In this document: positions 8,045 to 11,870 of the stretch, piece after piece
Numbering within the stretch: position 1 is the first letter of the stretch
Layout: every line of letters begins with the position of its first letter
Source of the DNA: a virus
Direction: 5' to 3' (one strand)
DNA: 20,821 bases
Virus record (IMG/VR): IMGVR_UViG_3300037247_000403
Coordinates: 1-20,821 of that record
Translations under genes and position numbers: made by a program
Notes under the pieces: model-generated
Told to the model about the DNA's origin: nothing
Database searches by the model: none
Seen by the model: only the letters and a program-made list of their open reading frames with translations

Positions 8045-9286
8045 TTATCCTTGGCCAGTGGATCGCAACACGAAGTGTGGCGCCAACACTGCCGGCACAC
8101 CTCGCATCGAAGCTTTGAACTGGGCCACGATATCGCGGTCGAACTCGGCCTCTGCGTTGGGCGGGGCCTGGCTCGGCGTAATCGGCCAGTTCTCCATCCA
8201 GGCAAACGCCTTGGAGAAATCGCCCAGGAACCAAAACAGCCGGGCATTAGCCGCCGACTGCCCTGCGTTGTCGATCAGCCGACGATGCAGGTAGCGACTC
8301 TCCACTACGGTGATGGAACTTCCAAACGGATTCTGGAACAGCGTCTGCACGGAGCTGCCGGTCGTTACCCGCAACTCAGTAGCGTTGACGATATTTCGGG
8401 CCGTCGGGAACAGGGCCGGACCGACGAGCAACGTCAACTGCGGAGCCACGACAATCGGCTCCTGCGTATTCGGGTCCTGCATTTCGCCGTACTTCTCAAG
8501 CGCGGCGTCCAGGTCCGTGTAGTCGGCCAACACATCAGTGATCTGATTGGTGTAGGGCACCAACGGATCAGAGGTGAAGTCGGTGGCACTTGCCGTGTAC
8601 ACGGGGTACTCGGTGCTGCGCCACTTCCACTTACCGCCCAGGGCAAACGTCGGCGACGACCCACCACCGTAACCACTGACAGAGTCCATCAATAGCTTTT
8701 CCTTGGTCACACCCAGCCACTCGCCCACTTCTGCGGCTCGCTTCAGGACCAAGGCGGTCCGATCGAAGAAGATGGCTTCCTTCGTCACAGGGACGATCTC
8801 GCCGTACTTCTGAGTCGGCGGCGTGTCGATGTAATCCTCGACAACACCAACACGCTCATACGGCATGCCAGGGTGTATGGGCTTGATCCCCACGCTGTCG
8901 TTGGTTCGCGTCACTCCGGGGATCTTTTCGCCGTCCAGCTTCGTCGGCACCGCCGGCACCAACGCCGTGGCCACCTTGGAGGCGGCCACGAATGCCTGCA
9001 TAATCGCCGAAAAGACGATTTGGCCGGTGATATTCCGGAAGGCCGTCACGTCAACGCCGTCGCCTGCCGATTCCATCACGCTGGTGATGCGATGGTTGGG
9101 GCCGTTTCCGGGGTTGCACATTTCCACGAATTCATGGCCCATCGAAGCAAGGGCCCATTCGCGGATTGAAAAGTCGCGGGCTTGGAGGTGTCCTTCCCGC
9201 AGGGCCTCGGTCAGATGCTGCTCTGCCTTGGCCGGACCCATGCTCTCGCACAGGTGTTTCAGTTCTCGATACTTGATCGCTCTCAT
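8045..9286 (-). CDS. Major capsid protein (HK97-fold candidate)
   Basis: A 413-residue protein from ATG 9286 (GGTGA five bases upstream); a GTG at 9295 is an in-frame alternative with AAAGGA close by. The N-terminal 90 residues are helical (ELKHLCESMGPAKAEQHL), then FRNITGQIVFSAIMQAFVAAS, IPGVTRTNDSVGIKPIHPGMPYE split over the next strands, a TALVLKRAAEVGEWLG helix resembling the spine helix of HK97-type shells, and a C-terminal half with IVVAPQLTLLVGPALFPTARNI and FGSSITVVESRYL, the usual P-domain/A-domain phrases ('L-v-x-P-x-L...A...i-v-x-n-x...v-v-x-s-x-x-l'). Size, and order behind protease/scaffold and cement genes, support the call. It could be labelled Mu gpT-like in databases. No covalent cross-link residues can be assigned. 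Confidence 0.88.
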   Translation of the reverse strand: MRAIKYRELKHLCESMGPAKAEQHLTEALREGHLQARDFSIREWALASMGHEFVEMCNPGNGPNHRITSVMESAGDGVDVTAFRNITGQIVFSAIMQAFVAASKVATALVPAVPTKLDGEKIPGVTRTNDSVGIKPIHPGMPYERVGVVEDYIDTPPTQKYGEIVPVTKEAIFFDRTALVLKRAAEVGEWLGVTKEKLLMDSVSGYGGGSSPTFALGGKWKWRSTEYPVYTASATDFTSDPLVPYTNQITDVLADYTDLDAALEKYGEMQDPNTQEPIVVAPQLTLLVGPALFPTARNIVNATELRVTTGSSVQTLFQNPFGSSITVVESRYLHRRLIDNAGQSAANARLFWFLGDFSKAFAWMENWPITPSQAPPNAEAEFDRDIVAQFKASMRGVPAVLAPHFVLRSTGQG

Positions 9287-9305
9287 GGTTTTCACCGTGT
9301 CCTTT

Positions 9306-9806
9306 CTAGACTGAGGCAGTGCCCAAGGGGTAGCCGCCGGTCATGACGGTGGATCTGATCTCCACGAGCACGCGAGTGACATTCGATCCTTCGCGTTTGG
9401 CCGCCTTGCCGATTGCACGCGGCACGTCGGCGTCGGCATGGCCGTCCCCCAGCGAGACAACCTTTTGGTCTTCCAGTGCCGTCGATCCGCTGTTGTCCGC
9501 GGCGGCCACGAGATCGCCAAGCTCGAACTGATCTGCGGCGCAATCGAACTCGAATACGCCACTGGTGGCGACCCGAATGTCCTCTGTATTGCCGTCTGGG
9601 CTACTCTGCATCGCGACGCCCAGGAAGTCGTCCACAAGCGCCTCTTGCGCCGTTGCCAATCCCCCGGCATACGACACGGCAGATGCCGGCCGGACGTCGT
9701 CGGTGTTCAGCCAAACCAGGTCACCAATCTCGACAACCTGAGCTGAGTCAACTGGCGATACGCGCGGATTCGTCGCACCATAACGCCACAGCATGCGGTT
9801 AGACAT
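9306..9806 (-). CDS. Capsid cement/decoration protein (DUF2190-like)
   Basis: A 166-residue protein starting MSNRMLWRYGATNPRVSPVD at ATG 9806, with a strong AGGAGG eight bases upstream, consistent with high expression. It has the features of small phage capsid-stabilising proteins: an IGDLVWLNTDDVRPAS strand-turn, DFLGVAMQSSPDG, then TSGVFEFDCAADQFELGDLV and a closing PRAIGKAAKREGSNVTRVLVEI strand pair. In DUF2190-type proteins the phrase 'G-x-F-x-x-x-x-a-...-x-G-d-x-V' followed by 'v-G-x-A-...-v-x-V-x-L' is typical. It lies between the protease/scaffold and the major capsid protein, where cement proteins usually occur. The role is to cover or brace the expanded capsid. Confidence 0.82.
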   Translation of the reverse strand: MSNRMLWRYGATNPRVSPVDSAQVVEIGDLVWLNTDDVRPASAVSYAGGLATAQEALVDDFLGVAMQSSPDGNTEDIRVATSGVFEFDCAADQFELGDLVAAADNSGSTALEDQKVVSLGDGHADADVPRAIGKAAKREGSNVTRVLVEIRSTVMTGGYPLGTASV

Positions 9807-9836: not shown

Positions 9837-10319
9837 TCAAGTAATCAGCGAGACGAATTCCTTGGCGTTTGCCACCTTGGTCTCGCCTTCCGTCACGCCT
9901 TGTTCTCTGCTGCGAGGCTTGCCGCCCTCGGTCAGCTTGGCCATTGTCTGCCGATCCTCGATCAGCGCCTTGCGTCGGTCGGCATCGGCGTTCAGCATCG
10001 ACTCACGGAACACGTCCGTGACCAGTGCCTCCGGCAACTTGGCCGCCTCGACCAGGGCGTCGACTTCGGTCTTTTGCTTGGCCAGCTTCTCGACCGCCTC
10101 GAAGACGTCGATCTTCTCGACCAGCACGGTTTTCTCTTTACCGGCCGCCTCGACCTGCTCGACGAGCGTCTTGGCCTCCGAGGCCAGCTTGGCATTGTCG
10201 GCATTCAGTTTCTCGATCACCGTAGCGTCATCGCGGCCGGCAATCGCCTTGCGGCTGATCGCCTCCACCAGCTCGCCATGGTCGGCTTCGAGGATTGCCA
10301 GAGTTAAGGGTGTGTCCAT
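9837..10319 (-). CDS. Internal in-frame scaffold product (nested start)
   Basis: Inside the protease gene an ATG at 10319 (MDTPLTLAILEADHGELVEA) is preceded by an AAAGGA-AAAAGGTC purine stretch, a good ribosome site. Translation from it would give a 160-residue protein made only of the coiled-coil scaffold region, without the protease domain. This reproduces the lambda C/Nu3 arrangement, where scaffold is made in excess from an internal start. The boundary is convincing: protease motifs end near QSVDLVADPATTRGLFE and an acidic linker precedes the ATG. Expression from this start is inferred from sequence only. Confidence 0.65.
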   Translation of the reverse strand: MDTPLTLAILEADHGELVEAISRKAIAGRDDATVIEKLNADNAKLASEAKTLVEQVEAAGKEKTVLVEKIDVFEAVEKLAKQKTEVDALVEAAKLPEALVTDVFRESMLNADADRRKALIEDRQTMAKLTEGGKPRSREQGVTEGETKVANAKEFVSLIT

Positions 10320-10841
10320 GACCTTTTTCCTTTCATCTATGCGCCCCTCATTGTCTTCTGCTTGCTCGAATAACCCGCGGGTCGTAGCTGGATCGGCCAC
10401 CAGGTCGACAGACTGAACGCGGGTGATTTCCTCGACCAGCACACGATCGCCTTTACGACGTACGCGCACCCCAACATTGTGCGAGAACCCCACATTTTCC
10501 GGCGCATGCTCGGCGTCCCATTCGAGCTGCTTGGCAAGGGGGTGGTGGGGGTTGTAGAAAAAATCCCCGTAGAGGCCATCGCTTTCGACGACGACGTGGC
10601 GGATGATTCCCATGCGATCTTGATAGTCGCGAGGGGCTCCGGCCTTGGCGGGGTGATTGACGTTGACCTTGGCATCTTCGTAGAGTACGGCCGCCTGTTT
10701 CAGCGTCTCGGGCGGATAGTCGCGGCCGTTGCGGCTGGCCAGGCCCAGGATCTTTACGCCGCGGATCACGCCGCCGTTGTTGTCGACCTTCAGCTCGACG
10801 CCACGACTATCAACGAATTCCTGAATCAGTTCGGTATCCAT
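9837..10841 (-). CDS. Prohead maturation protease fused to a scaffold-like C-terminal region
   Basis: 334 residues from ATG 10841 (MDTELIQEFVDSRGVELKVD). A longer frame opening at TTG 10895 runs through a terminator-like hairpin and is unlikely to be the true start. The N-terminal 170 residues look like a herpesvirus/T4 gp21-type maturation protease: VNVNHPA with His63, NVGFSHNVGVR with Ser120, and RVQSVDLVADPA with Asp146, plausible catalytic residues in the right order and spacing. The rest (about 175-334) is a charged, Ala/Glu/Lys-rich coiled coil (NADNAKLASEAKTLVEQVEA) like capsid scaffolds. The protease would cleave scaffold and capsid N-termini before expansion. Followed by cement and capsid genes, as in HK97-fold phages. 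The ATG has only a weak ribosome site. Confidence 0.88.
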   Translation of the reverse strand: MDTELIQEFVDSRGVELKVDNNGGVIRGVKILGLASRNGRDYPPETLKQAAVLYEDAKVNVNHPAKAGAPRDYQDRMGIIRHVVVESDGLYGDFFYNPHHPLAKQLEWDAEHAPENVGFSHNVGVRVRRKGDRVLVEEITRVQSVDLVADPATTRGLFEQAEDNEGRIDERKKVMDTPLTLAILEADHGELVEAISRKAIAGRDDATVIEKLNADNAKLASEAKTLVEQVEAAGKEKTVLVEKIDVFEAVEKLAKQKTEVDALVEAAKLPEALVTDVFRESMLNADADRRKALIEDRQTMAKLTEGGKPRSREQGVTEGETKVANAKEFVSLIT

Positions 10842-10870: not shown

Positions 10871-10912
10871 GAAAACGCCCGCAGCCCCGGCGCAATGCCG
10901 AAGATGCGGGCG
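10871..10912 (-). terminator. Hairpin with T-run, unit B of a tandem pair, just before the protease gene
   Basis: The minus strand reads CGCCCGCA (10912-10905), an inner CGGC-ATTGC-GCCG stem, then TGCGGGCG (10883-10876) followed by TTTT. That is an 8-bp GC stem with a nested hairpin and a short T-run, the form of an intrinsic terminator. It ends 34 bp before the protease ATG, so complete termination would leave the capsid genes without read-through. It may attenuate, or a promoter may lie after it; I see no clear promoter in the short gap. Confidence 0.6.
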
Positions 10913-10952
10913 CACCTGTAAGGTTTCTGCCCGAATCGTCAGTTAGGACAAT

Positions 10953-11013
10953 CCAACAAAAAACGCCCGTGGCCTGAGCGGATAGTGCTCAGAACACGGG
11001 CGCGGTTTGTTGG
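10953..11013 (-). terminator. Long composite hairpin with T-run, unit A of a tandem pair
   Basis: A 61-nt near-palindrome. Outer arms CCAACAAA/TTTGTTGG (11013-11006 and 10960-10953), middle arms CGCCCGTG/CACGGGCG (11002-10995 and 10971-10964), apical arms CTGAGC/GCTCAG (10992-10987 and 10979-10974). On the minus strand the GC stem is followed by six T residues, so it is a good intrinsic terminator in the direction of the operon. It lies 36 bp after the stop of the 58-residue gene at 11049. Confidence 0.72.
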
Positions 11014-11048
11014 CCTTCTGCCCGAAGGATCAGGTTGTCAGGGTCATT

Positions 11049-11226: not shown

Positions 11227-11412
11227 TTACGGAGCCGGGTGGTTCTCAATAATCTGTGCCTGGGACCCCTGCACCTCGCCTTCGCGGTAGTGAACCTTCA
11301 GGATCACGTCACCGCGAAGCCCACATTCCCGGGCCTCTGCCATCTTCATGGACAGCAAAAGTTCCGGGGCAGGGCCCTTGTCTCTATCTAAGCGTACTGG
11401 CTTCTCGGACAT
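11227..11412 (-). CDS. Small hypothetical protein, 61 residues
   Basis: The best start is ATG 11412 (MSEKPVRLDRDKGPAPELLL), right after the TGA of the preceding gene (TGA CA ATG); a TTG two codons up is less likely. The protein is charged and soluble, with ARECGLRGDVILKVHYREGE in the middle, probably a small beta/alpha domain. No recognised family. It sits between the Cys/HTH protein and the 58-residue gene, with stop-start contacts on both sides, so it is part of one translational unit. Confidence 0.6.
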   Translation of the reverse strand: MSEKPVRLDRDKGPAPELLLSMKMAEARECGLRGDVILKVHYREGEVQGSQAQIIENHPAP

Positions 11413-11414
11413 TG

Positions 11415-11870
11415 TCAAGTGGAATCTGGGGGAGCACCGACGATTTTAGAGAATATCGCCCGCTCCGCCTGGGTCGGGGATTGCGAGATGTCAACGATTT
11501 TAGGGAATTCCGCTTTACCCTGTTGTTCTGCTGCCCACGCCCGAAGCTCCAACTCAATGAATCCGACTGCACCGTCACGCATCCTCACGGAGGGGATTAC
11601 AAAGTCATCAGCCAATCGTGTAACGCGATTTGAGGCCATCCCTAGGATGTCGCCGGCTTCACATTCATCCAGCAGCAGCCGTGGATAAAGCGGAGGGGCT
11701 TGTTTCAGTACATCCGGTACAAACTCACCACACCACTCGGTGTCGTCTACGCAGGGCCATTGGCTGGCGGTGGGCGGGTGCCGACGACAGGTACCCTCAC
11801 TTATAGTCGGCGCTATTTCTCGCCAGAACCTACACCCTACACACCTCTCGTCATTCGGTGATTCGCTCAT
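11415..11870 (-). CDS. Four-cysteine domain fused to an excisionase-type helix-turn-helix
   Basis: 151 residues from ATG 11870, chosen because GAGGAGG lies four bases upstream; the longer frame lacks such a site. Residues 10-50 carry C10-x2-C13-RFW, GTC28-RRHPP, WPC40 and EWC47-GEF, a pattern I associate with small metal- or Fe-S-binding modules seen in phage and bacterial hypothetical proteins. Residues about 66-116 (LLLDECEAGDILGMASNRVT, then FVIPSVRMRDGAVGFIELEL, then RAWAAE) follow the winged-helix pattern of AlpA/Xis/MerR-like DNA-binding domains. A DNA-binding protein with a metal or redox centre is a reasonable inference. It overlaps the upstream gene by 20 bp. Its target is unknown; the tandem hairpin region downstream or a late promoter would be candidates. 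Confidence 0.72.
   Translation of the reverse strand: MSESPNDERCVGCRFWREIAPTISEGTCRRHPPTASQWPCVDDTEWCGEFVPDVLKQAPPLYPRLLLDECEAGDILGMASNRVTRLADDFVIPSVRMRDGAVGFIELELRAWAAEQQGKAEFPKIVDISQSPTQAERAIFSKIVGAPPDST

Follow-up and report, generated by a model that had tools for sequence, protein, structure and literature searches.

In this study, we found that two tandem hairpins lying immediately ahead of the protease and capsid genes in the window (the whole stretch of DNA that was analysed, a 20.8-kb viral record) represent divergent copies of an RNA element, conserved yet undescribed, which occurs in many phages, including some that reside in Planctomycetota genomes. The RNA element and its conservation are well supported. 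We favour, with moderate confidence, a reading in which the tandem units are attenuators, or conditional intrinsic terminators, of the head operon leader and would alternate between two folds under the putative control of a trans-acting factor.

The head genes of the window run on the minus strand in the order terminase, portal, MuF-like protein, small genes, protease-like protein, cement and major capsid protein. The RNA units are read on the same strand, in the direction of the head genes, and both are flanked by the small genes on one side and by the start of the protease gene (10841) on the other. Each unit comprises a terminator or terminator-like hairpin and, overlapping its 5′ arm, an antiterminator-like hairpin in which a box pairs with the arm sequence GCCCG (P1) around an inner helix (P2). 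The features are as follows.

8045–9295, minus strand: major capsid protein (PF25209; relatives 43–52% identical).
9306–9806, minus strand: head cement/decoration protein (phrog_122 and PF09956).
9837–10841, minus strand: protease-like head protein, the first gene after the RNA element (phrog_29592, E 2.8e-15; relatives weakly match head maturation protease profiles too).
10872–10912, minus strand: unit 2 terminator-like hairpin (stem 10912–10876, followed by a short U-run of only U4, 10875–10872).
10907–10933, minus strand: unit 2 antiterminator-like hairpin (box CGGGC, 10933–10929; P2 ACCU/AGGU; GCCCG, 10911–10907; fold −11.2 kcal/mol).
10953–11013, minus strand: unit 1 terminator (61-nt nested hairpin; core stem 11002–10964; U6, 10963–10958).
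10997–11024, minus strand: unit 1 antiterminator-like hairpin (box CGGGC, 11024–11020, with GCCCG, 11001–10997; P2 weak, 2 bp; AACAA within the loop; fold −9.1 kcal/mol; nucleotide homology to the L266 leader).
11227–11418, minus strand: small gene whose product is similar, by a motif match and a weak alignment, to the short protein that most relatives encode upstream of the element; family searches gave no family match.
L340:2675–2854, L353:2649–2858, L404:2401–2613 and others: the small-protein genes in relatives, with the pattern GFYGTAxxELxxQDGTIQxIRR.

The original prediction described two units about 91 bp apart that share a box and a CGCCCG hairpin. This was borne out: the window contains exactly two copies of TTCGGGCAGAA, at 11026–11016 and 10935–10925 on the minus strand, with a spacing of 91 nt, and each copy is followed on that strand by a CGCCCG...CGGGCG stem and then a U-run. 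The 61-nt hairpin with three nested stems that it had also described was recovered in the fold of unit 1, with arms 10953–10979 and 10987–11013. In minus-strand order, a box, the U6 hairpin, the second box and the U4 hairpin (to 10872) lead up to the protease start, 30 nt on. Both units thus have, by sequence, the make-up of an intrinsic terminator, a GC-rich hairpin followed directly by a U-run. The 191-nt region folds at −89.3 kcal/mol, compared with −62.8 (sd 4.5) for its shuffles (z −5.9; none of 200 as good); over the window as a whole, the counts of promoter-like and terminator-like sites are at chance level. The P1–P2 hairpin folds by itself in both units, with 5 bp of box/arm complementarity in each. 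The P2 loop of unit 2 is UAC, without AACAA, while unit 1 has AACAA in the loop but a P2 of just 2 bp. Two short flanking sequences were also observed: (A)AC(C)UGA just before the box, at about 11047–11032 (minus strand) in the window, recurs at the same place in L266, L341, L333 and L360, and CGUUCUUG or a similar sequence recurs after the U-run in several leaders.

Since patterns made from the window's own box gave chance matches only, in viral and genome contigs alike, relatives were sought through the neighbouring proteins. The window protease, used as a single-sequence query, retrieved nothing, and the capsid protein, and the protease of one relative, had no match among 50,697 phage records. 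The capsid protein led to three relatives, and alignments of the capsid protein and the protease then gave 80 and 64 loci, across which the leaders (250 nt upstream of the protease starts) were read. The layout seen in the window recurs repeatedly upstream of the protease in many other phages. A terminator-like hairpin is present in 32 of the 49 distinct protease leaders that these phages supplied, and some of these 49 leaders of the window's protease family are without one. In most of the leaders with a hairpin, a conserved box (GGGUA/GGGCA or GGUAUC) precedes the terminator and can pair with its 5′ arm, so that the antiterminator-like hairpin (P1 and P2) and the terminator are mutually exclusive. 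The distance from the end of the U-run to the start codon has a median of 21 nt (range 4 to 130, with 4 in L338). A promoter and start site would rarely fit into such a space, and most capsid transcripts should therefore cross the hairpin.

Searches against Rfam 15 at the gathering threshold gave no match for the window and only one unrelated tRNA for 20 relatives; at a relaxed threshold, only a microRNA model appeared, far below its cut-off. Our paper searches returned no description of the element. A published table lists a candidate RNA, Rhodopirellula-1, which has a possible cis-regulatory role in Planctomycetes and Proteobacteria and carries no Rfam accession there (PMC2864571); it may or may not be identical with our element.

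The element takes two forms. Type I can be written approximately as CGGGU-A-n-[P2]-AACAA-[P2′]-G-GCCCG, in which GCCCG is the start of the terminator, and type II as GGUAUC-N4–5-GAG-[middle hairpin]-UAUC-N4–5-GA-GCCC, running into the terminator. The type II units number 34, listed with one further chance match; the type II pattern matched 19 viral contigs, mostly upstream of the window's protease family, and had no match in 246 genomes of the phylum to which a Planctomycetia genome belongs. A stricter type I pattern recovered only units already known and chance coding matches. The covariance model R1, made from six type I seed copies, matched 835 kb of relatives 41 times at E up to 1, with about 38 matches falling at leaders, and had no match in 754 kb of unrelated genome control contigs. 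Its best score in 249 Pseudomonadota genomes was 31.6 bits, and those of its matches in the Planctomycetota set that score 41 to 53 bits are clear of this noise; L534–L536, at 31–32 bits, are at the noise edge by score. Because R1 also recovers type II, the two forms look related. The weak genome matches of the model R2 were left unused, as this model is too loose (up to 36.6 bits in Pseudomonadota).

Neither R1 nor R2 matched the window at E up to 10, and the window units are best called divergent members of the family on the basis of their position and fold and of a clear homology, at the nucleotide level, to one relative. They lie directly before the protease, which is the leader position of the other members. 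Unit 1 aligns with the L266 leader at a nucleotide score of 51, against a maximum of 28 in 2000 shuffles, and the homology takes in most of CCTGACAACCTGAT, upstream of the box. Both window units align with L266, L323 and L326 in a GGCAGA subgroup, and R1 finds L323.

The original prediction had been staked in part on the existence of relatives with compensatory changes in the stems. Such relatives were found, and both the P2 and the terminator stems covary. In the tested set, whose register was set by hand, P2 is represented by eight distinct Watson–Crick helices with all 24 pairs intact (permutation 5e-5), and 98% of P2 cells are paired. Double changes occur in all three P2 pairs and in five of seven terminator pairs of a model-fitted alignment, which leans towards structure. 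The middle hairpin of type II also covaries (158 of 175 cells paired, compared with 133 after shuffling). P1 is nearly invariant, and its pairing support consists of a few, partly related cases. Where the arm is GCCG, the box is shortened to CGGU or UGGU (5/5 units), and where the arm is GCCCG, the box is of the GGG type (19/20); the joint shortening from CGGGU/GCCCG to CGGU/GCCG (5/5 versus 1/20; Fisher p 1.1e-4) is to be read with the fact that the copies are not fully independent or certain, some of them coming from one phage and L534 being a weak match. The L535 arm, ACCU, retains the ability to pair with its box, GGGU. When any 4-nt complement upstream was accepted, a lenient criterion, 62% of leaders and 48% of ordinary control terminators had one (p 0.14, not significant). 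The complementarity of the window boxes was rejected as stand-alone evidence, given that two generic tests fail to separate the leaders and relatives from ordinary terminators; for the same reason, it is meaningful only through the relatives.

These data bear on two further suggestions made for the window. That the boxes are a recognised motif agrees with the conserved box of the relatives, although the motif proves to be GGG(U/C)A with a small P2 hairpin (loop usually AACAA) and GCCC, and not TTCGGGCAGAA itself. That the units are tandem attenuators or antiterminator sites fits the comparative evidence, including the covariation of P2 and the terminator.

According to the attenuator model, the box in the nascent RNA (CGGGC in the window, CGGGU in most relatives) would pair with the GCCCG just downstream and close the P2 hairpin. 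As this GCCCG also serves the terminator as its 5′ arm, the RNA could adopt one fold or the other, never both. Without help, the stronger terminator would prevail, and transcription would end before the protease and capsid genes; a factor holding the P1–P2 hairpin, perhaps a phage RNA-binding protein, would let the polymerase read through. In tandem copies, the upstream arm could pair with the next box, giving a possible chain of alternative pairings. The predicted stabilities are −20 to −47 kcal/mol for the terminator hairpin versus −8 to −13 kcal/mol for the P1–P2 hairpin. P1–P2 may form first during transcription but would normally be displaced by the far more stable terminator, so that read-through would need a stabilizer. 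Read-through dependent on a stabilizer has been described for the BglG-type and ANTAR systems (PMC3369931). What speaks against an attenuator is that a terminator before the most abundant protein calls for efficient bypass.

Several known systems resemble the element. In RAT, the target of the BglG/SacY/LicT family, an antiterminator likewise overlaps a mutually exclusive adjacent terminator and is stabilized by protein (PMC3369931). The RAT consensus is not apparent by eye in our element, the comparison resting on the general description, and the element, unlike RAT, governs phage head genes. The targets of ANTAR proteins (EutV/NasR/AmiR) are, like the element, small hairpins, often in a tandem pair, that overlap the 5′ part of an intrinsic terminator, with mutually exclusive folds (PMC3369931, PMC3369936). 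They are recognized by hexanucleotide loops with A at position 1 and G at position 4 (PMC3369931); the loop of type I is usually the five-nucleotide AACAA or a variant of it, and in this respect the element differs from an ANTAR target. The put sites of phage HK022 and the nut sites of lambda are also phage RNA sites, put consisting of two stem-loops, and allow the polymerase to pass terminators (PMC9378689). However, put is about 70 nt in length, lies in early operons near the promoter and has no terminator overlap (PMC9378689), whereas the P1 arm of our element is the terminator arm and the element stands before head genes; it was not taken for a put site.

A related but unlikely explanation is that the element is a nut- or put-like loading site, at which the box and the AACAA hairpin bring in an antitermination factor, or affect the polymerase themselves, with this and later terminators then being ignored and the P1/arm pairing being incidental. 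This would account for sequence conserved beyond the needs of pairing (GGGUA, AACAA, GGUAUC and GAG), for the upstream copy of L283, which is without a U-run of its own, and for the presence of several copies along one operon; lambdoid phages place such sites before early genes (PMC9378689). However, the element overlaps the terminator arm at a fixed spacing and box and arm co-vary, both of which are unnecessary for a site that acts at a distance. It is improbable that the hairpins are RNA processing or stability elements, marking cleavage or protecting ends between gene blocks and so setting mRNA levels without regulated termination. Very stable hairpins at gene-block borders would suit such a role, but the U-runs conserved directly after the stem are typical of terminators and superfluous for processing, and the covarying P2 beside an arm-complementary box would be left unexplained. 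Ordinary tandem terminators that insulate a capsid operon with its own downstream promoter are likewise improbable: the hairpins and U-runs are good terminators by sequence and a complementary 4-mer nearby is common at terminators, but in most leaders a promoter would not fit into the short distance from U-run to start codon (30 nt in the window), and the conserved box and covarying P2 go unexplained.

The element also occurs beyond the window's protease family. In L413, the element precedes an unrelated protease/ATPase fusion, which is followed by the capsid gene. L427 carries, on the reverse strand, three copies at gene-block borders (12360–12297, 8692–8638 and 5918–5858), which stand before the portal gene, before a gene of 317 aa, and before a small gene that has a capsid-like gene after it; box and arm are shortened jointly in two of the three. 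Among bacterial genomes, the element lies before terminase and portal genes in L533 and L537 and, with a weaker score, before the capsid gene in L535 and L539. Strong matches were found before a protease/capsid block in L587, on a contig with phage-type replication genes in L588, and between excisionase-like and primase-like genes of an integrative element in L589, near 8604 (G655:C327:12602–12675). Judging by these contexts, the element appears to serve mobile elements as a control point, chiefly at head genes but also elsewhere.

Some copies have other surroundings. Type II copies away from head genes are present at L392:10426–10483 (minus strand) and L400:649–706 (plus strand), following an HD-phosphohydrolase gene and preceding a helix-turn-helix gene. 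Weaker copies in the Planctomycetota genomes G042 and G010 (L534, L536 and L555) lie near ordinary-looking genes, at sites after a hemE-like gene and before a gene with a signal-peptide-like start; these are either chance matches or host use of the element.

Most relatives, and L413 as well, encode a protein of 59–85 aa immediately upstream of the element. It shows a weak likeness to DUF2292 (E 0.67), and its predicted structure (pLDDT 83; one helix and two strands) gave no confident match among solved structures. By its position, this small protein might be one candidate for the missing read-through factor.

Taken together, we tentatively propose, as a possibility that we do not yet hold to be probable, a new class of cis-regulatory RNA switch that serves as a control point before head genes and other blocks, is common to unrelated Planctomycetota phages and mobile elements, and is recognized by one conserved RNA-binding factor. 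Phages need capsid protein late and in bulk, and the well-known controls of capsid production are promoters, processive antitermination and RNA processing. If a terminator that carries its own antiterminator does stand before the capsid block, serving unrelated phages and recurring along a head operon, this would be a different solution, and it would point to a novel RNA-binding regulator, of phage or host origin, in a bacterial phylum with little-studied phages.
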